A stretch of 44,094 bases of DNA from Solirubrobacterales bacterium (lineage in GTDB: Bacteria > Actinomycetota > Thermoleophilia > Solirubrobacterales > Solirubrobacteraceae): assembly GCA_019240115.1 (NCBI GenBank), contig JAFAYV010000072.1, positions 1 to 44,094 on the forward strand, written 5' to 3'. Positions 11,413 to 20,459 of the stretch are shown here, one piece after another. The stretch's first letter is position 1; each line of letters starts with the position of its first letter. The position numbers and the translations under genes are program-made. Under the pieces are notes generated by a model, which was not told the origin of the DNA, made no database searches, and saw only the letters and a list, made by a program, of their open reading frames with translations.

Positions 11413-11420
11413 GTGGCTGA
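11328..11420 (+). CDS. Possible 30-aa leaderless upstream ORF overlapping the ThDP-enzyme start
   Basis: An ATG at 11328 lies exactly 8 nt after the TAGAGT box (11314-11319), the spacing seen at other apparently leaderless genes here. The frame runs 30 codons and stops at 11418-11420, overlapping the GTG start of the ThDP enzyme (11413) by 8 nt. The peptide is basic and starts [14 protein letters not shown]. It has no family resemblance. If translated it would couple ribosomes into the downstream gene, which has only weak Shine-Dalgarno sequence. The start-site logic is seen; translation is a guess. Confidence 0.3.
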
Positions 11421-13140
11421 CAGCGCGGCCGTCCTGACGGCTCGCTTCCTCGTGGAGCGCGGCGTCGATCGCGTCTTCGGTCTGCAGGGAGGCCACATCC
11501 AGCCGATCTGGGACCAGCTCGCCCGCGCCGGCGTCCGGATCGTCGACGTCCGCGACGAGGGCGCCGCCGTCCACATGGCGCACGCGCATCGCGAGCTGAC
11601 CGGCGCGATGGGCATCGCGATCGTGACCGCGGGTCCGGGCGTCACCAACACGGTGACCGCCGTGGCCAACGCGTCGGTCTCGCGCATGCCGCTGATCGTC
11701 ATCGGGGGCTGCCCGCCGCGGCCGCAGGAGAACATGGGGCCGCTGCAGGGCATCCCGCACGTCGAGATCCTGCGGCCGGTCACGCGCACGGCGCGAACCC
11801 TCGCCGTCGCCGATCAGGTGCTGCGGGAGCTCGACGAGGCGTGGGCGCGGGCCGAGGGCGATCGCGGCGACCCCGGGCCCGTCTACGTGGAGATCCCCAC
11901 CGACGTGCTCCGCGAGGCGGTCGCGCCGGCACTGGTCACCTCTGAGCATCTGCGGCCCAAACCGCGGCGCCGGCCGCAGCCCGATCCCGACGGGGTCAGC
12001 GCCGCCGCGGCGATGATCGCGAGCGCGCGCCGGCCCGCGGTCATCTCGGGCCGGGGCGCCCGCGTCGGCACGGGCGCGGAGATGGTGCGCTTCCTCGACG
12101 CCTCCGGCGCCGCCTATCTCGACACGCAGGAGAGCCGCGGGCTCGTGCCGGCCGATCACCCCTCGGTCGTCGGCGCGATGCGCTCGGCGGTGTTCCGCCA
12201 GGCCGACCTCGTGATCACGGTCGGCCGCCAACTCGACTTCCAGGTCGGCTTCGGGTCGCCCGCGGCGTTCCCCGAGGCCCGCTTCATCCGGATCGCCGAC
12301 ACCGCCTCCGAGCTGATCGACAACCGGCGCGGGGAGGTCGAGCTGCTCGCCGACCCCGCGGCGGCGCTCGACGCCCTCGCCACGGCGCTCGGGCAGTCCG
12401 ACGAGACGGCGGACCGCGAATGGCTCGCCGAAACCCGCGCCGAGCACGTGCGCCGCTCGGAGAAGTACCGCGCCGAGCTTGGCGACAGCCCGCCGGGCGC
12501 GGACGGGAACATGCACCCGAACCGGATCTTCGGCGCGGTCGCCGACGCGGGCCTCGACGACGCGATCGTGATCGCCGACGGCGGCGACTTCCTCAGCTTC
12601 GCGCGATTGGCGCTCCAGGGCTGGCGGTTCCTCGACCCGGGCGCGTTCGGCTGCCTGGGGATCGGGGTGCCGTTCGGGATCGCCGCGTCGCTGGCCTACC
12701 CCGAGCGCCGAGTGCTCGTGGCCACGGGCGACGGCGCGTTCGGCATCAACGCGATGGAGATCGACACCGCGGTGCGCCACGGCGCCACGATCGTCGTGAT
12801 CGTCGCCAACAACGCGGCGTGGAACATCGAGCGCTACGACCAGCTCGAGAACTATGGGATGGTCGTCGGCACCGAGCTTGCGTACAGCGACTATGCGGCA
12901 ATGGCCCGCGGCCTCGGCGCCCATGGCGAGCGAGTCACCGATCCCGAGGATCTGCCGGCGGCGCTGGCGCGGGCGCTCGAGAACGCCCCGGCGCTCATCG
13001 ACGTGGTCGTCAGCCGAGACGCGCCGTCGCCCGACGCCGGCAAGGGCCTCGGCTACGTGCCGGACTATCAGGCACTGACGCCGTGGGACGAGAAGGAGAT
13101 CAAGCGTCGCTCGGCGGTCGCCGCGCCGAGCGACGGGTAG
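11413..13140 (+). CDS. ThDP-dependent lyase/decarboxylase (acetolactate synthase-like; candidate 2-hydroxyacyl-CoA lyase)
   Basis: 575 residues from a GTG start. The Pyr domain has the cofactor-activating Glu49 in [11 protein letters not shown], followed by [17 protein letters not shown] central domain covers about 190-330. The PP domain has the ThDP/Mg motif from Gly439 ([13 protein letters not shown]) to [10 protein letters not shown]. The overall type is acetolactate synthase/oxalyl-CoA decarboxylase/2-hydroxyacyl-CoA lyase. The neighbouring CoA ligase argues for an acyl-CoA substrate, so cleavage of a 2-hydroxyacyl-CoA to an aldehyde or ketone plus formyl-CoA is my favoured inference. A true acetolactate synthase is less likely because no small subunit or ilvC is adjacent. 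Substrate specificity cannot be read by eye. The CoA ligase starts 27 nt downstream. Confidence 0.85.
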
Positions 13141-13167
13141 CGCAAATCCAGCGAGCGGAGGTGCAGG

Positions 13168-14562
13168 ATGGAGGAGTGGACGTTCCCCGTGCAGTACGAC
13201 GAGGAGTACCTGCCCGACCCGGAGTCCCCGTATTGGTTCGAGCAGCGCGAGACGATGGACCCCCAGGAGCGCGACGCCGCGGTGCTCGAGCGCATCCGCG
13301 AGGTCATGCGCTACGCCTACGACAACTCGAGCTTTTACAAGAACAAGTACGACGAGGCCGACGTCAACCCGGATGACATCACCTCGTTCGAGGCGTTCGA
13401 GCAGGTGCCCGTGATCACCAAGGAGGAGATGCGCACCTCGCAGACCGAGCACCCGCCGTTCGGCGACTACGTCTGCGTCCCGAGCTCCGAGATCCACCAC
13501 ATCCACGGCACCTCGGGGACGACCGGCACGCCGACGGCGTTCTCCATCGGCCGCGGCGACTGGGCGGCAATCGCCAACAACCACGCCCGGATCCTTTGGG
13601 GGATGGGCCTGCGCCCGGGGGACGGGGTCTTCGTCTCGGCGATCTTCAGCCTCTACCTCGGCTCCTGGGGCGCGATGGCCGGCGCCGAGCGCCTGCGCTG
13701 CCAGGTGTTCCCGTTCGGCGCCGGCGCCGGCGGCGGCATGACGGCCCGGGCGGTGCAGTGGCTGGCGCGCTGCCGGCCCCGGGGCTTCTACGCCACCCCC
13801 TCCTATGCGCTCCGTCTCGCCGAGGTCGCGCAGGAGGAGAAGATCGACCCCAAGGAGTTCGGGCTGGACGTGATGTTCTTCTCCGGGGAGCCGGGGGCGT
13901 CGGTGCCGTCGGTGCGCAAGCAGATCGAGGATGCGTTCGGCGCCACCGTGATCGACACCGGCACGATGGCGGAGATGACCCCGTTCATGTCGGCCGCGGC
14001 GAGCGCCGGCACCCCCGAGGGCATGCTGCTGTGGCAGGACATCGTGTGGCACGAGGTGTGCGACCCCGAGACCTTCCGCACTGTGCCCTACGGCGAGGAG
14101 GGCACGCCCGTCTACACCCACCTGGAGCGCACCTCGCAGCCGATGATCCGGCTGGCGTCCAACGACCTGACCCGATGGGTGATGGAGGACAACCCGTGCG
14201 GGCGCACCTATCCCCGCCTGCCCGAGGGCGTCTACGGCCGCATCGACGACATGTTCCAGGTGCGCGGCGAGAACGTGTATCCGACCGAGATCGACAACTA
14301 CCTGCGCACCGTCGAGGGCTACGGCGGCGAGCATCGCGTCATCGTGTCGCGCAGCGGCTCGATGGACGAGCTGCTGGTCAAGGTCGAGTGCGGGCGGTCG
14401 GAGACCGACGGCTTTGAGAAGGAGGTGGCCTCCGGTCTGCAGAACGTGCTCGGCCTGCGGCCCGCGATCGAGGTCGTGGAGGTCAACACGTTCGACCGCT
14501 CAGATCACAAGTCGCGCCGCGTCACCGACGAGCGCGAGCACACCCAGCGCGGGTCAGGCTGA
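13168..14562 (+). CDS. PaaK-type (phenylacetate-CoA ligase family) AMP-forming CoA ligase
   Basis: 464 residues. The length and N-terminus (ERIREVMRYAYDNSSFYK) are typical of PaaK-type ligases. The P-loop HGTSGTTGTPTAFS begins at His113. YGRIDDMFQVRGENVYPTEI is the A8 hinge region, and the C-terminal DHKSRRV carries the likely adenylation Lys. It would activate a carboxylic acid with ATP and CoA in the cytosol. It follows the ThDP enzyme by 27 nt with a Shine-Dalgarno (GGAGGTGCAGG), so the two are one operon. This pairing suggests the ligase makes the lyase's acyl-CoA substrate. An aryl acid substrate is equally possible from sequence alone. Its stop overlaps the convergent IclR stop by 9 nt. 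Confidence 0.88.
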   Translation: MEEWTFPVQYDEEYLPDPESPYWFEQRETMDPQERDAAVLERIREVMRYAYDNSSFYKNKYDEADVNPDDITSFEAFEQVPVITKEEMRTSQTEHPPFGDYVCVPSSEIHHIHGTSGTTGTPTAFSIGRGDWAAIANNHARILWGMGLRPGDGVFVSAIFSLYLGSWGAMAGAERLRCQVFPFGAGAGGGMTARAVQWLARCRPRGFYATPSYALRLAEVAQEEKIDPKEFGLDVMFFSGEPGASVPSVRKQIEDAFGATVIDTGTMAEMTPFMSAAASAGTPEGMLLWQDIVWHEVCDPETFRTVPYGEEGTPVYTHLERTSQPMIRLASNDLTRWVMEDNPCGRTYPRLPEGVYGRIDDMFQVRGENVYPTEIDNYLRTVEGYGGEHRVIVSRSGSMDELLVKVECGRSETDGFEKEVASGLQNVLGLRPAIEVVEVNTFDRSDHKSRRVTDEREHTQRGSG

Positions 14563-15399
14563 CGCCAGCGCGCCGTCGAGCCCGCGGGCGATGTCCAGCA
14601 GCGTCAGCTGGAGCTCGTCGCGCTCGGCCGCGAACTGGGCGCGGGTTACGGTGACGCCGATGCCGGCGACCGGCGCACCCGATGCGTCGGTCACCGCGGC
14701 GGCGACCGACCCGAACTCGAGGTCGTACTCGCACCGGTCGGTCGCCACGCCACGACGGCGGACGTCGTCGAGCTCGATGCGCAGCCGCGCGGCGTCGGAG
14801 ATCGTCAGCGGGGTCAGCGGCGCCAGGCCGGTCTGGTCGACGTAGCGCTCCAGAGCGGACTCGTCGAGATTGGCCAGGGCCAGCTTGCCGATCGCGAGCC
14901 CATGGGCGGTCCGGCGGATGAGCGGGCTCTCGAGCCTGGTCATCCGCGGGATGCCCTGGCGACCGACCTCGTCGATCACGCGGACGGTCGCCGCGTCGAA
15001 GATCCCGATGCAGGCGCGCCGTCCGGTGCGGCGGAAGGCCTCGAGCATCGCGTCGCGCAGCTCCCGTCGCCGCTGTGGATCGACCGGCTCGGGCACGTCG
15101 ACGGGCCGCGGGGCCCCGGGCTTGGAGGCCACCAGGCGATAGCGCCCCGAATGTCCCGTCCGCATGACGTACCCCTCGGCCTCGAGGCTGGCGAGCAGGT
15201 GGTACGCGGTCGAGCGGCTCTTGCGCAGCCGGTCGGCGACCTGACGGGCGGAGACCCCGTCGGGGCACTCGGCGACATAGGAGAGGACGCAGAGGACCGC
15301 CCGCGCCGTGCTCAGCCCGCGATCATGCGACATCGACCCCGCGCCGTCCCGGTTCCCCGAGGCGGCCACGAAATCCGGGCTCGAACCTCCCGATTGCAT
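14554..15399 (-). CDS. IclR-family transcriptional regulator
   Basis: 281 residues. The N-terminal winged helix (about residues 28-88) has SARQVADRLRKSRSTAYHLL, the recognition-helix region, followed by the wing EGYVMRTGHSGRYRL. The C-terminal IclR ligand-binding domain covers about 105-275, with the conserved pattern AHGLAIGKLALANL and a GVTVTRAQF strand. The start at 15399 has a strong Shine-Dalgarno (GGAAGGAGAGGTC). A later ATG at 15333 is possible. IclR proteins usually sense small carboxylates or aromatics and control adjacent catabolic operons; here the ThDP/PaaK and aldehyde dehydrogenase operons flank it. An 18-bp perfect palindrome lies 60 bp upstream of its start. Confidence 0.92.
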   Translation of the reverse strand: MQSGGSSPDFVAASGNRDGAGSMSHDRGLSTARAVLCVLSYVAECPDGVSARQVADRLRKSRSTAYHLLASLEAEGYVMRTGHSGRYRLVASKPGAPRPVDVPEPVDPQRRRELRDAMLEAFRRTGRRACIGIFDAATVRVIDEVGRQGIPRMTRLESPLIRRTAHGLAIGKLALANLDESALERYVDQTGLAPLTPLTISDAARLRIELDDVRRRGVATDRCEYDLEFGSVAAAVTDASGAPVAGIGVTVTRAQFAAERDELQLTLLDIARGLDGALASA

Positions 15400-15458
15400 G
15401 ACCTCTCCTTCCGCGATCGACCACCCTGGGCGGCGCCTGAGCGGACGGTCGGGACTTG

Positions 15459-15476
15459 CCTGAACGATCGTTCAGG
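15459..15476. promoter_or_regulatory. 18-bp perfect palindrome, probable TetR-type operator
   Basis: CCTGAACGATCGTTCAGG is a perfect inverted repeat of the kind bound by FadR/KstR-like TetR regulators of acyl-CoA metabolism (AAC-GATC-GTT core). It sits 60 bp upstream of the IclR start and 65 bp beyond the TetR stop, so TetR control of the iclR promoter is inferred. Confidence 0.65.
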
Positions 15477-15540
15477 AGCCTACCACATGCCCAGGGCCAC
15501 GCGTCCGCGGTCGACGCGGATGCGCGAGCGAAGGGGAGCG

Positions 15541-16299
15541 CTAGCGGGGTCGCCGCTGGGCGGGGACGCGCGGGTGCGGCGTCGCGAAGGTCGCGCCGGT
15601 CGCCAGCAGCGCGTCGAGCTTGGCCTCGACGCGATCGAGCTGGGTCGTGGCCGGGCGCGGGTCCAGCGGGGCGACGGCGAGATCGTCGTCGGCGGCGGAG
15701 ATCTGGACGCCGTTGAGGAAGACGTCGAGCAGGACGCGACCGATCTCCTCGGGGGCCGAACCGCCGTCGGGGCGATACCAGAAGATCGACCAGTTCAGCG
15801 TGTTGAGCAGGGCGAGCGTCAGCCAGCGTGAGCTCGGCTGCGCTCGTACGTAACCATCGCGCTGCGCGGCCTCGATGAGGTTTCGGATCCGCGCCTCGTA
15901 TCGGGCTCGGATCTCGCGCACCTCGGCGCGATCCTCGGGCGCGAGCGCGCGCATCTCGATCAGCATCGTCGCGTGCATGTCGGCGTCCTGGAGGGCCGAC
16001 GCGACGTGGGCGACGACGGCGGCCCGCAGGCGCTGCAGGGAGTCGCCGAGCCCGTGCAGCGCGGAGCTGACCGCGACGTCGATCCGCGCGATGCTCTCCA
16101 GGCAGATCTCGTAGAGCAGCGCGTCCTTGCTCGGGAAGTGGTGGTAGAGCGCTGCCTTGGTCAGCCCGAGCGACTCGGCCAGCGTCCGCGTGCTCGTGCC
16201 CGCGTAGCCGTGCGTGCGAAACAGCCGCGCCGCCTCGATGACGAGGCGGTCGCGCATTCCGGGCGCGGGGGGTGGCGAGGTGGGGCGATCGTCGGCCAC
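15541..16299 (-). CDS. TetR-family transcriptional regulator
   Basis: 252 residues from GTG at 16299. The start is chosen because a TACTCT box (complement of 16306-16311) lies 6 nt upstream, as at other leaderless starts here; ATG at 16257 is an alternative. The N-terminal TetR_N domain includes AARLFRTHGYAGTSTRTLAE and SLGLTKAALYHHFPSKDALL, a textbook TetR helix-turn-helix. The remaining ~180 residues are helical, as in ligand-binding domains of acyl-CoA- or aromatic-responsive members, and have an Asp/Pro-rich tail. It is divergent from the aldehyde dehydrogenase operon and upstream of an 18-bp palindrome facing iclR. Confidence 0.92.
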   Translation of the reverse strand: MADDRPTSPPPAPGMRDRLVIEAARLFRTHGYAGTSTRTLAESLGLTKAALYHHFPSKDALLYEICLESIARIDVAVSSALHGLGDSLQRLRAAVVAHVASALQDADMHATMLIEMRALAPEDRAEVREIRARYEARIRNLIEAAQRDGYVRAQPSSRWLTLALLNTLNWSIFWYRPDGGSAPEEIGRVLLDVFLNGVQISAADDDLAVAPLDPRPATTQLDRVEAKLDALLATGATFATPHPRVPAQRRPR

Positions 16300-16542
16300 G
16301 GGCGCAGAGTATGACCATGCCCCGAGACCCCGAGGACTGCAGCGCCGTCGCCGCGGCCGGTTTTTCAAGATTGTGCGACGCGGCCGGCGATCTTGACGCG
16401 CCCGGCGCGGCGAGGGGATCATCCCGTGGATGAGCGTGGCGCAACCGCCCGCACGGCTCGCGACTGTGAGTGGCGTCTGTAGGGCATCATCCTCTCGGAT
16501 CACGCACGGCCGCCCACGGCACGATCGAAGAGGAGAGACCGC
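16300..16542. promoter_or_regulatory. Divergent tetR / aldehyde dehydrogenase promoter region with inverted repeat
   Basis: TCAAGAT (16365-16371) and ATCTTGA (16390-16396) form a perfect 7-bp inverted repeat with an 18-nt spacer. TGTGCGACGCGG inside it (16372-16383) repeats a string found upstream of the ThDP-lyase operon. GGGATCATCCC (16415-16425) is a second small palindrome. A Shine-Dalgarno (GAGGAGAGACCGC) precedes the aldehyde dehydrogenase ATG. Confidence 0.5.
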
Positions 16543-18057
16543 ATGCCACAGCTGTTGACCGTTGACACCGATGCCCGCACGGTGGGCAACGTGCAGATGT
16601 TCGTGGGCGGCGAGTGGGTCGCCGCCGCCTCCGGGGAGACCTTCGCCGCGGTCGACCCGAGCACGGGCGAGACGATCGCCCAGGTGCCACGCGGCGGCGA
16701 GGCCGACATCGACCGAGCGGTCGCCGCGGCCAAGGCGATGGCGGTCGAGTGGCAGTTCACCGACGCCGTCGCGCGCGCGGCGCTGCTGCGCACGCTCGGT
16801 GGCCTGATCGCCGCCAACGCCGAGGAGCTCGCGCACCTGGAGGCGATGGACTCCGGTCATTATCTCGCCAAGGCCCGGGAGCTGATCGGCGCGCTGCCGC
16901 TGTGGCTCGACTACTTCGCGGGGCTCGCCGACAAGGTCGGGGGCCGGACGATCGAGGTGCCGGGCAACAAGCTCGACTTCACGCTGCTCGAGCCGCTCGG
17001 GGTCACTGCCCACATCGTGCCGTGGAACTATCCGTTGCTCATCCTCGCCCGCTCGACGGCGCCGGCGCTCGCGCTCGGCAACACGTGCGTCATCAAGCCG
17101 GCCGAGCAGACCTCGCTGTCCACGCTGCGCTACGCCGAGCTCGTGCAGGAGGCGGGCTTCCCGGATGGCGTCTTCAACGTCGTCACCGGCTTCGGTCCCG
17201 AGGCCGGCGCTCCGCTCGCCGCCCACCCCGACGTGATGGGGATCACCTTCACCGGCTCGGTGGAGACCGGCAAGGCGGTCGCCAAGCTCGCCGCCGACCA
17301 CGTCGCCCAGGTCAACCTCGAGCTCGGGGGCAAGAGCCCGATGATCATCTTCCCCGACGCCGAGCTCGACGACGCCGTGGAGGCGACCGTGCAGGGCTTC
17401 TGCTCGCACGCCGGCCAGGTCTGCGTCGCGGGCAGCCGGCTGTTCCTGCACTCAGACATCCAGGACGCGTTCCTCGAGAAGCTCGTCGAGCGGCTGAAGA
17501 CCGCCGCCGTCGGCGACATCTACGACGACTCCACGCAGATGGGCCCGCTCGTGTCCGAGGAGGCGCTCGAGCGCGTCACGAAGTACATCGAGATCGGCAA
17601 GCTCGAGGCCAACCTGCTCTACGGCGGCGGCAAGCCGCAGGGCACCGCCGATGGCGGCTACTACGTCGAGCCGACGGTGTTCACCGACGTCTCGAACACC
17701 GACCGGATCGCCCAGGAGGAGATCTTCGGCCCCGTGCTGTCGGTCATCCCCTGGTCGGACGAGGGCGATCTGCTGACCCAGTGCAACGACTCGGACTTCG
17801 GCCTGTTCGCGGTCGTCTTCTGCCAGAACATCACGAAGGCGCTGAACATGGCCAAGCGCCTCCAGGTCGGCGGGGTGATGATCAACGACTGGTTCGGCGA
17901 GCTCCCGATGAGCCCGCACGGCGGCTACAAGCAGAGCGGCACCGGTCGCGAAGAGGGACTGGAGACCGTCCACGGCTACACGCAGGTCAAGCACGTCAGC
18001 GTCAACCTCGACGGGTCGTTGCGCGCCGGCAGCGACTGGTCCGGAGCCCCGCTCTAG
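16543..18057 (+). CDS. NAD(P)-dependent aldehyde dehydrogenase
   Basis: 504 residues, full length for the ALDH superfamily. The general base is Glu260 in NLELGGKSP and the catalytic nucleophile Cys294 in GQVCVAGSRLF. The Rossmann segment contains PWNYPLLI and FTGSVETGKAV (cofactor-binding GSxxxG). EEIFGPVLSV and the C-terminal MSPHGGYKQSGTGREEG are conserved. It oxidises an aldehyde to its acid in the cytosol; specificity is not predictable by eye. It leads a three-gene operon with a gluconate-2-dehydrogenase-subunit-3-like gene 21 nt downstream and a GMC oxidoreductase. An alcohol-to-aldehyde-to-acid route is suggested: GMC enzyme first, ALDH second. Confidence 0.95.
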   Translation: MPQLLTVDTDARTVGNVQMFVGGEWVAAASGETFAAVDPSTGETIAQVPRGGEADIDRAVAAAKAMAVEWQFTDAVARAALLRTLGGLIAANAEELAHLEAMDSGHYLAKARELIGALPLWLDYFAGLADKVGGRTIEVPGNKLDFTLLEPLGVTAHIVPWNYPLLILARSTAPALALGNTCVIKPAEQTSLSTLRYAELVQEAGFPDGVFNVVTGFGPEAGAPLAAHPDVMGITFTGSVETGKAVAKLAADHVAQVNLELGGKSPMIIFPDAELDDAVEATVQGFCSHAGQVCVAGSRLFLHSDIQDAFLEKLVERLKTAAVGDIYDDSTQMGPLVSEEALERVTKYIEIGKLEANLLYGGGKPQGTADGGYYVEPTVFTDVSNTDRIAQEEIFGPVLSVIPWSDEGDLLTQCNDSDFGLFAVVFCQNITKALNMAKRLQVGGVMINDWFGELPMSPHGGYKQSGTGREEGLETVHGYTQVKHVSVNLDGSLRAGSDWSGAPL

Positions 18058-18078
18058 CGAGCAGAGAGGAGATCGACA

Positions 18079-18750
18079 ATGCCGAGCACCAACCGTGAGG
18101 CGGACGGGATCGAGAGCGCGCCCGAGCCATTTGGCGCCAAGGCGACCGACCTCGACCCGCGCGAGGCGTGGCGCAACGAGAAGGCGCAGCTCGGCGGGTT
18201 CAACCCGCCGGTGCGCTTCACCGACGACCAGGCGGCGGTGCTCAACGCCGTCGCCGACACGATCATCCCGCCGGGGGGCGGCTTCCCGGCCCCCAGCGAG
18301 GTGTTCATCATCGATTTCATCAGCCGCTACGTCACGCCCGCGGACAAGGAGCTGAAGTACTTCCCGCTCGCCGGCGAGGCGAAGTTCAAAAAGCAGGTGG
18401 ACGGATTGCTGGGCGCGTCGTTCGCCGACGCCTCGAATGACGATCGCACGGCGACGCTGCGCAGGCTCGAGGAGTCCGACGACGAGGACGAGGCGGCGTT
18501 CTTCGTGCAGCTGCGATCGTTGACCTACTACGGGTACTACGCGCGCCCGGAGGTGACCGCCGCGATCCGCAAGGAGCTGCCCGCGGGTCGCGAGTACCAC
18601 GGACCGCCACAGCCCTACGGCTATCTGGGCAAGGTCGAGCCGTGGCCCGAAGGGCGATGGGACAAGAACCCGGGCGGCTACATCGCCACCGACGCCGTGA
18701 CGCGCATCGAGATTCCCGCTGACATCAAAGCCGAGTACGAGGTGAGCTGA
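18079..18750 (+). CDS. Gluconate 2-dehydrogenase subunit 3 family protein without signal peptide
   Basis: 223 residues. FTDDQAAVLNAVADTIIPPG is the characteristic start of the Gluconate_2-dh3 domain, which continues with FIDFISRYV-like and DGLLGASFADA segments and ends with an RWDKNPGGY-type region. In gluconate, fructose and glucose dehydrogenases this small subunit helps Tat export and maturation of the FAD subunit, and it usually has a twin-arginine signal. Here the N-terminus is polar (MPSTNREADGIES) with neither a twin-Arg motif nor a hydrophobic stretch, so the complex is probably cytoplasmic. The stop overlaps the GMC start as TGATG, indicating translational coupling. Confidence 0.88.
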   Translation: MPSTNREADGIESAPEPFGAKATDLDPREAWRNEKAQLGGFNPPVRFTDDQAAVLNAVADTIIPPGGGFPAPSEVFIIDFISRYVTPADKELKYFPLAGEAKFKKQVDGLLGASFADASNDDRTATLRRLEESDDEDEAAFFVQLRSLTYYGYYARPEVTAAIRKELPAGREYHGPPQPYGYLGKVEPWPEGRWDKNPGGYIATDAVTRIEIPADIKAEYEVS

Positions 18751-20459
18751 TGACCTTCCGCACCAACGGCAGCAACGGCGCCGACCGCAACAGCACCGAC
18801 GTGCTGATCATCGGCTCGGGCATGAGCGGGGCGGCGTTCGCCAAGCGGCTCACCGACGCCGGGATGAAGTGCACGCTGCTCGAACAGGGCGACTGGATCC
18901 GCCCCGTCGAGTACGACCACTTCCACGACGAGTTCGACATCGAGCGCAACCGCGGCTGGGCGTATGACCCCAACGTGCGTCAAGGTCCAGAGGACTTTCC
19001 GGTCACCGGATTCACCACTCCGTACATGATCAACGCGGTCGGTGGCTCGACGATCCACTACGCCGCCCACTGGCCGCGCTACAAGCCGATCGACTTCCGC
19101 AAGGGCACCGAGCACGGGGTCGCGGGCAACATCGACTGGCCGATCTCCTATGAGGACCTGGCGCCCTACTACGACATCAACGACGCCGAGGTCGGCATCT
19201 CGGGCGTCCATGGCGACCCGGCGTACCCGCCGCGGCCCAACGCGCCGCGCCAGAAACCGATCAACCCCGGCAAGCTGGGCCTGAAGTTCGCCAAGGGCCT
19301 GGACCAGCTCGGCTGGCACTGGTGGCCGTCGGACAACGGGATCATCACCGAGGGCCGTGACGGCCGGTTGCCGTGCAACGAGTGCGGCAACTGCCTGCAG
19401 GGCTGCCCGCGTGGGGCGCTCGCCGGCATGGACGTCAGCCTCATCCCCAAGGCGCTGGCCAACGGCCTCGACCTGCGCACCAACGCGCGGGTCACCCGGA
19501 TCGTGGCCAAGGGCGGCAAGGCGACCGGCGCCGAGTACATCGATCGCGTCACCGGCGAGACGCACTTCGTCTCGGCCAACATCGTCATCCTCGCGGCCAA
19601 CGGGATCGGGACCCCGCGGCTGCTGCTGATGTCCGCCCAGGAGGGTCACCCCGACGGGCTGTGCAATGCCAACGGCCTCGTGGGCACCCACCTGATGCAT
19701 CACTCGTTCGCGTTCGTCGACTGCTGGTTCGACGATCCGGTCGAGGGGTACCTCGGCGCCTTCGGCGCGCCGCTGTACTCGCACGAGTTCTACCACTCCG
19801 ATTCGAGTCGGGGGTTCGTCAACGGCGTGGCGATGCAGGTCGGACGGAGCTTCGGCTCGGCGTACGCCGCCAACGGCACTCACACCGGCGCGGTCATGCC
19901 GTGGGGAGCCAACCACCGCGAGCATTTCAATGAGCACTTCGGGCACCACCTGCTCGTGTTCATGTTCGGCGAGGACCTGCCGATCAAGGAGAACCGCGTC
20001 ACCCTCGACCCCGAGGTCAAGGACTCGAGCGGCCTCCCGGCGCCGCACGTCGAGTTCAACGTGTCAGAGAACGATCGGCGGCTGTGCGAGTTCGGCGTGG
20101 AGCGGATCACCGACGTGGCCAACGCGCTCGGAGCGTCGGAGACCAACCACACCGGCGTTCTCTCGCCGCCGCCCGGCTGGCACCTGATGGGCACCGCGCG
20201 GATGGGCAACAACCCCGAGGACTCGACGACCAACATGTACAGCCAGACCTGGGAGCTGCCCAACCTGTTCATCGCCGACGGCGCCGCGCTGACCACCGGC
20301 GGCATCGTCAACCCGACGAGCACCATCGGCGCGCTCTCGACCCGCGCCGCCGAGTACATCAAGCAGAACTACCAGAACATCGTCGAGCAGTCCAAGACCC
20401 CGGCCAACGCCGACGCGCCGGGCCTGTCCAACCGCGAGCTGGAGCTCTCCGCGGCCTAA
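18750..20459 (+). CDS. GMC-family FAD oxidoreductase (catalytic subunit)
   Basis: 569 residues. The FAD-binding motif VLIIGSGMSGAAFAKRL is near residues 20-36. AVGGSTIHYAAHWPR is the second FAD contact, and the C-terminal GMC domain has the catalytic His in GWHLMGTARMG and an Asn in GGIVNPTST. A Cys cluster, C-x2-C-x2-C-x3-C, begins at residue 209 (PCNECGNCLQGCPRG), as in dehydrogenase-type GMC proteins of the gluconate/glucose dehydrogenase group, and may hold a 3Fe-4S cluster. No Tat signal is visible. Together with its small partner it would oxidise an alcohol or sugar and pass electrons on; no cytochrome c subunit follows. The gene ends 11 nt before a strong hairpin. Confidence 0.9.
   Translation: MTFRTNGSNGADRNSTDVLIIGSGMSGAAFAKRLTDAGMKCTLLEQGDWIRPVEYDHFHDEFDIERNRGWAYDPNVRQGPEDFPVTGFTTPYMINAVGGSTIHYAAHWPRYKPIDFRKGTEHGVAGNIDWPISYEDLAPYYDINDAEVGISGVHGDPAYPPRPNAPRQKPINPGKLGLKFAKGLDQLGWHWWPSDNGIITEGRDGRLPCNECGNCLQGCPRGALAGMDVSLIPKALANGLDLRTNARVTRIVAKGGKATGAEYIDRVTGETHFVSANIVILAANGIGTPRLLLMSAQEGHPDGLCNANGLVGTHLMHHSFAFVDCWFDDPVEGYLGAFGAPLYSHEFYHSDSSRGFVNGVAMQVGRSFGSAYAANGTHTGAVMPWGANHREHFNEHFGHHLLVFMFGEDLPIKENRVTLDPEVKDSSGLPAPHVEFNVSENDRRLCEFGVERITDVANALGASETNHTGVLSPPPGWHLMGTARMGNNPEDSTTNMYSQTWELPNLFIADGAALTTGGIVNPTSTIGALSTRAAEYIKQNYQNIVEQSKTPANADAPGLSNRELELSAA

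Follow-up and report, generated by a model that had tools for sequence, protein, structure and literature searches.

A predicted lyase-HCL gene cluster for 2-hydroxyisobutyrate degradation in a Solirubrobacterales bacterium

A lyase route for 2-hydroxyisobutyrate was described in 2020 in a related soil bacterium, Actinomycetospora chiangmaiensis DSM 45062, whose gene cluster is induced on 2-hydroxyisobutyrate and was verified by proteomics (PMC7176365). This strain converts 2-methylpropane-1,2-diol and 2-hydroxyisobutyrate to acetone and formate, and its cloned lyase was active on 2-hydroxyisobutyryl-CoA (PMC7176365). The structure of the lyase, AcHACL, has been solved with its substrate (PDB 7PT1-7PT4, PMC8760513). 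The locus studied here is an ordinary, well-supported example of this already described pathway. Its mechanism and chemistry are known, and the new elements are the host lineage and the regulators.

Inside the window (the whole stretch of 44,094 nucleotides that was analysed), the block at 11413-20459 is very probably a lyase-HCL cluster for 2-hydroxyisobutyrate degradation, predicted to lead from 2-methylpropane-1,2-diol to acetone and formyl-CoA. The genes of the block are as follows.

11413-13140, plus strand: predicted ThDP-dependent 2-hydroxyacyl-CoA lyase of the AcHACL type; GTG start, 575 aa; matched by NF058623 and 7PT1
13168-14562, plus strand: predicted 2-hydroxyisobutyrate-CoA ligase (HCL) with a PaaK-like fold; ATG start, 464 aa; matched by 6HDW
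14554-15399, minus strand: IclR-family transcriptional regulator; PF01614 and PF09339
15541-16257, minus strand: TetR-family transcriptional regulator, start codon uncertain; PF00440 and PF17932
16543-18057, plus strand: putative MpdC-type 2-hydroxyisobutyraldehyde dehydrogenase, 504 aa; PF00171, 71% identity to A. chiangmaiensis MpdC
18079-18750, plus strand: putative small subunit of 2-methylpropane-1,2-diol dehydrogenase (Gluconate_2-dh3), 223 aa; PF13618, 44% identity to its A. chiangmaiensis counterpart
18750-20459, plus strand: putative MpdB-type large subunit of 2-methylpropane-1,2-diol dehydrogenase (GMC family), 569 aa; PF00732 and PF05199, 63% identity to A. chiangmaiensis MpdB

The first-pass annotation had described a ThDP enzyme gene coupled to a PaaK-type ligase gene with a convergent IclR gene, and the ORF coordinates and domain matches confirmed this arrangement. 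Exactly 27 nt separate the two plus-strand genes, and the IclR gene overlaps the end of hcl by 9 bp. The same annotation had confined the unit to 11413-14562; the gene pair stood, but the extent did not, as the functional unit is larger and reaches 20459. No match to ilvN- or ilvC-type families was detected among the main window ORFs scanned.

For the comparison, the A. chiangmaiensis proteins were taken from its genome locus (L018), where the lengths of the lyase (590), HCL (465), and small subunit (220) equal those of the published proteome table (PMC7176365). Lyase, hcl, mpdC, small subunit, and mpdB genes follow each other in the same order and orientation in both clusters, with identities of 71%, 77%, 71%, 44%, and 63%, respectively. 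The clusters differ in their regulators. An inverted pair of IclR and TetR genes lies between hcl and mpdC in the window, whereas in A. chiangmaiensis the lyase gene has a GntR gene upstream of it, which is absent at the window lyase. In six other Actinomycetospora lyase-HCL clusters (L009, L013, L015, L016, L017, and L019), MpdC was not detected and the small subunit gene was located almost directly after hcl.

The ThDP enzyme showed 985.7 bits to NF058623, the equivalog model of the actinobacterial 2-hydroxyacyl-CoA lyase with a cut-off of 600 bits. The runner-up model was the acetolactate synthase PRK05858, whose 365 bits stayed under its own cut-off of 587. Among solved structures, A. chiangmaiensis AcHACL (7PT1 and variants) gave 856.6 bits and the next enzyme group 224. 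Scores of this size, to an equivalog HMM as well as to a solved lyase, lie far outside what chance would produce. A tree had been proposed for placing the enzyme; built by a quick method, it grouped the window lyase with the Actinomycetospora and Pseudonocardia lyases (support 93).

Residue conservation pointed in the same direction. All 20 of the 20 published AcHACL positions compared (active-site, CoA-contact, and former ADP-site residues; numbering of the published structure, PMC8760513) were identical in the window lyase. These included the catalytic E493 and Q128, the water ligands H44 and T88 with the neighbouring G43, and the size-limiting L127 and I492. The CoA contacts Q255, R273, S274, R362, R417, D561, and K564 were all retained, as were the residues now occupying the former ADP site. 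The C-terminal lid, which restricts substrates to C4-C5 acids, was present and aligned nearly to its end. About 29% of the aligned residues differ between AcHACL and the window lyase, none of them among the substrate, CoA, catalysis, and lid-contact residues checked. We assign the ThDP enzyme to the actinobacterial 2-hydroxyacyl-CoA lyases; by orthology, it would cleave 2-hydroxyisobutyryl-CoA to acetone and formyl-CoA.

The adjoining ligase gave a full-length match to the 2-hydroxyisobutyryl-CoA synthetase 6HDW with 663.9 bits, compared with 236.4 bits for the true PaaK 2Y27, and was 77% identical to the HCL of A. chiangmaiensis. The PaaK-type partner is thus closest to 2-hydroxyisobutyryl-CoA ligase, and activity on 2-hydroxyisobutyrate is predicted. 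In mutase-type bacteria the 6HDW ligase is encoded with hcmAB, whereas the window ligase is encoded with a lyase.

Downstream of the regulators, the aldehyde and alcohol dehydrogenases belong to broad families and were assigned by similarity within them. The aldehyde dehydrogenase had been suggested to take its substrate from the lyase. This idea was rejected, since the gene encodes an MpdC homologue (71%) beside MpdB and the small subunit, and the predicted lyase product is a ketone (acetone) and not an aldehyde. As an MpdC homologue within an mpdC-small subunit-mpdB run, the enzyme would make the 2-hydroxyacid and act before the ligase and the lyase. Because of the two regulator genes inside the block, the ligase-lyase pair and the mpdC-small subunit-mpdB run form two transcription units, presumably under common control. 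IclR and TetR are presumed to be local regulators, with the TetR gene divergent from the aldehyde dehydrogenase gene.

Further enzymes were found away from the cluster in the same genome, as in A. chiangmaiensis, namely a Mim acetone monooxygenase and a selenocysteine formate dehydrogenase. The monooxygenase genes, clustered on contig C57, correspond to the Mim cluster of A. chiangmaiensis, with 78% identity for MimA and about 55% for the other components. An IclR gene lies directly upstream of mimA, and its product is 40% identical to the window IclR, a resemblance that hints at possible joint control of the cluster and mimA. A single TGA interrupts the reading frame of the formate dehydrogenase gene on contig C68 (L136), at the motif U-H-A-P-S-V, and the contig also carries the genes for tRNA-Sec and SelA. 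A gene finder unaware of selenocysteine would split this gene at the TGA.

On these assignments, MpdB with the small subunit would oxidize 2-methylpropane-1,2-diol to 2-hydroxyisobutyraldehyde, and MpdC would convert the aldehyde to 2-hydroxyisobutyrate. HCL would then use ATP to form 2-hydroxyisobutyryl-CoA, which the ThDP lyase would split into acetone and formyl-CoA, with the Glu equivalent to E493 relaying a proton. The MimABCD-type monooxygenase would hydroxylate the acetone, and formyl-CoA would yield formate for oxidation by the selenocysteine formate dehydrogenase. The predicted outlet to acetone and formate is the same as in A. chiangmaiensis. The first-pass annotation had put forward that an acid is activated to its CoA ester, which a ThDP enzyme then cleaves at a C-C bond to give a carbonyl compound and formyl-CoA, and the scores, the lid, and the 20 identical residues support this. 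Its view of an unknown acid and a possibly undescribed route did not hold, as the same five-gene set degrades 2-hydroxyisobutyrate in A. chiangmaiensis (PMC7176365) and the substrate-bound lyase structure was already available (PMC8760513). The identity and order of the genes, the conserved residues, and the accessory genes were established directly from the sequences; substrate, reaction direction, and IclR/TetR regulation would follow from orthology with the described system.

A mutase outlet for 2-hydroxyisobutyryl-CoA was also considered. No HCM-type mutase genes accompanying hcl were found in the window. The signature of 2-hydroxyisobutyryl-CoA mutase (HcmA) is Ile and Asp. In two B12 mutases of the genome (L091 and L092), Phe or Tyr replaces this Ile, and a third match (L093) had no readable signature. 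As the HCM-type signature was not found among the three mutase matches of the genome, no mutase outlet was apparent, and the mutase route was rejected.

The same enzymes might have a C5 acid as natural substrate, either 2-hydroxy-2-methylbutyrate or 2-hydroxy-2-methylbut-3-enoate derived from isoamylene or isoprene, and would then give butanone or methyl vinyl ketone together with formyl-CoA. AcHACL is equally fast with 2-hydroxy-2-methylbutyryl-CoA, and a lyase-HCL variant occurs in isoprene-degrading Rhodococcus (PMC7176365); the pocket residues are also the same. However, the Rhodococcus variant has a distant GMC enzyme where the window has a protein 63% identical to true MpdB, and the monooxygenase in the genome is of the acetone type, which makes a C5 substrate unlikely. 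Somewhat more doubtful again is an extended form, in which the natural substrate is a branched C5 hydroxyacid from isoprene or isoamylene and the IclR pair also governs the acetone/ketone monooxygenase cluster, which would be a lyase-dependent isoprene route outside Rhodococcus.

The lyase reaction is reversible, so the enzyme could in principle work in the synthesis direction and condense a ketone with formyl-CoA; a same-genus genome with a related lyase beside a B12 mutase operon would fit such a role. In the window, however, the free acid would be converted by the ligase into the substrate of the lyase, two oxidation steps would make that acid, and the HCM-type mutase signature was not detected in the genome. 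We consider the synthesis direction very improbable here and retain degradation of 2-hydroxyisobutyrate as the preferred function.

Acetolactate synthase, glyoxylate carboligase, and oxalyl-CoA decarboxylase share the ThDP fold and gave weaker matches, but these families scored at least 2.7 times lower than HACL and all under curated cut-offs (acetolactate synthase IlvB/AlsS, e.g., TIGR00118, 224 versus 538 bits; oxalyl-CoA decarboxylase TIGR03254, 200 versus 739 bits), the first two lack the Glu at 493 and the decarboxylase lacks the large C-terminal lid, so HMM scores, PDB scores, and residues leave them a negligible probability. The initial argument against acetolactate synthesis agrees with the NF058623 and 7PT1 scores, the residues, and the lid, which point to the lyase.

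Within the host family, the lyase was above the cut-off in only 2 of 146 sampled genomes; the cluster is therefore uncommon in this family, possibly as the result of an acquisition. A search for an empty site in sister genomes through the flanking genes gave no usable synteny. With an assembly contamination estimate of 4.2%, there is a small probability that the cluster has a misbinned origin, although GC content along the window was fairly even (67-76%). The finding extends the lyase route for 2-hydroxyisobutyrate to another bacterial family, complete with the downstream acetone monooxygenase and selenocysteine formate dehydrogenase, and one-carbon condensation work gains an additional enzyme that diverges from AcHACL by about 29%.

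Related genes were observed in other genomes. Two genomes of the same family (G030 and G031; L138 and L139) carried an hcl 56-57% identical to the window hcl together with hcmB, meaH, and hcmA, which places both 2-hydroxyisobutyryl-CoA outlets within one bacterial family. In the same-genus genome G059 (contig C256, L126:356-7321), a divergent AcHACL-type lyase, 50% identical to the window lyase (NF058623, 690 bits), adjoined a B12 mutase operon in which the mutase shows the Ile/Asp HCM signature; a MeaB-type GTPase, an MBL-fold protein, and an iron alcohol dehydrogenase are also encoded there. This set may represent a route from acetone or isopropanol and formyl-CoA to 3-hydroxybutyryl-CoA. 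A similar route has been proposed in Desulfococcus biacutus, but the G059 lyase is of a different type.

AcHACL-type lyases about 60-66% identical to the window lyase were also present in 68 loci (L021-L088), mostly from Alpha- and Betaproteobacteria. A FadD-type AMP ligase, and not HCL, was located beside the lyase in 63 of these loci (53 upstream and 10 downstream). The FadD-paired lyases kept the active site except for S274, which was replaced by Ala or Gly, and some of the loci carried a GntR gene.
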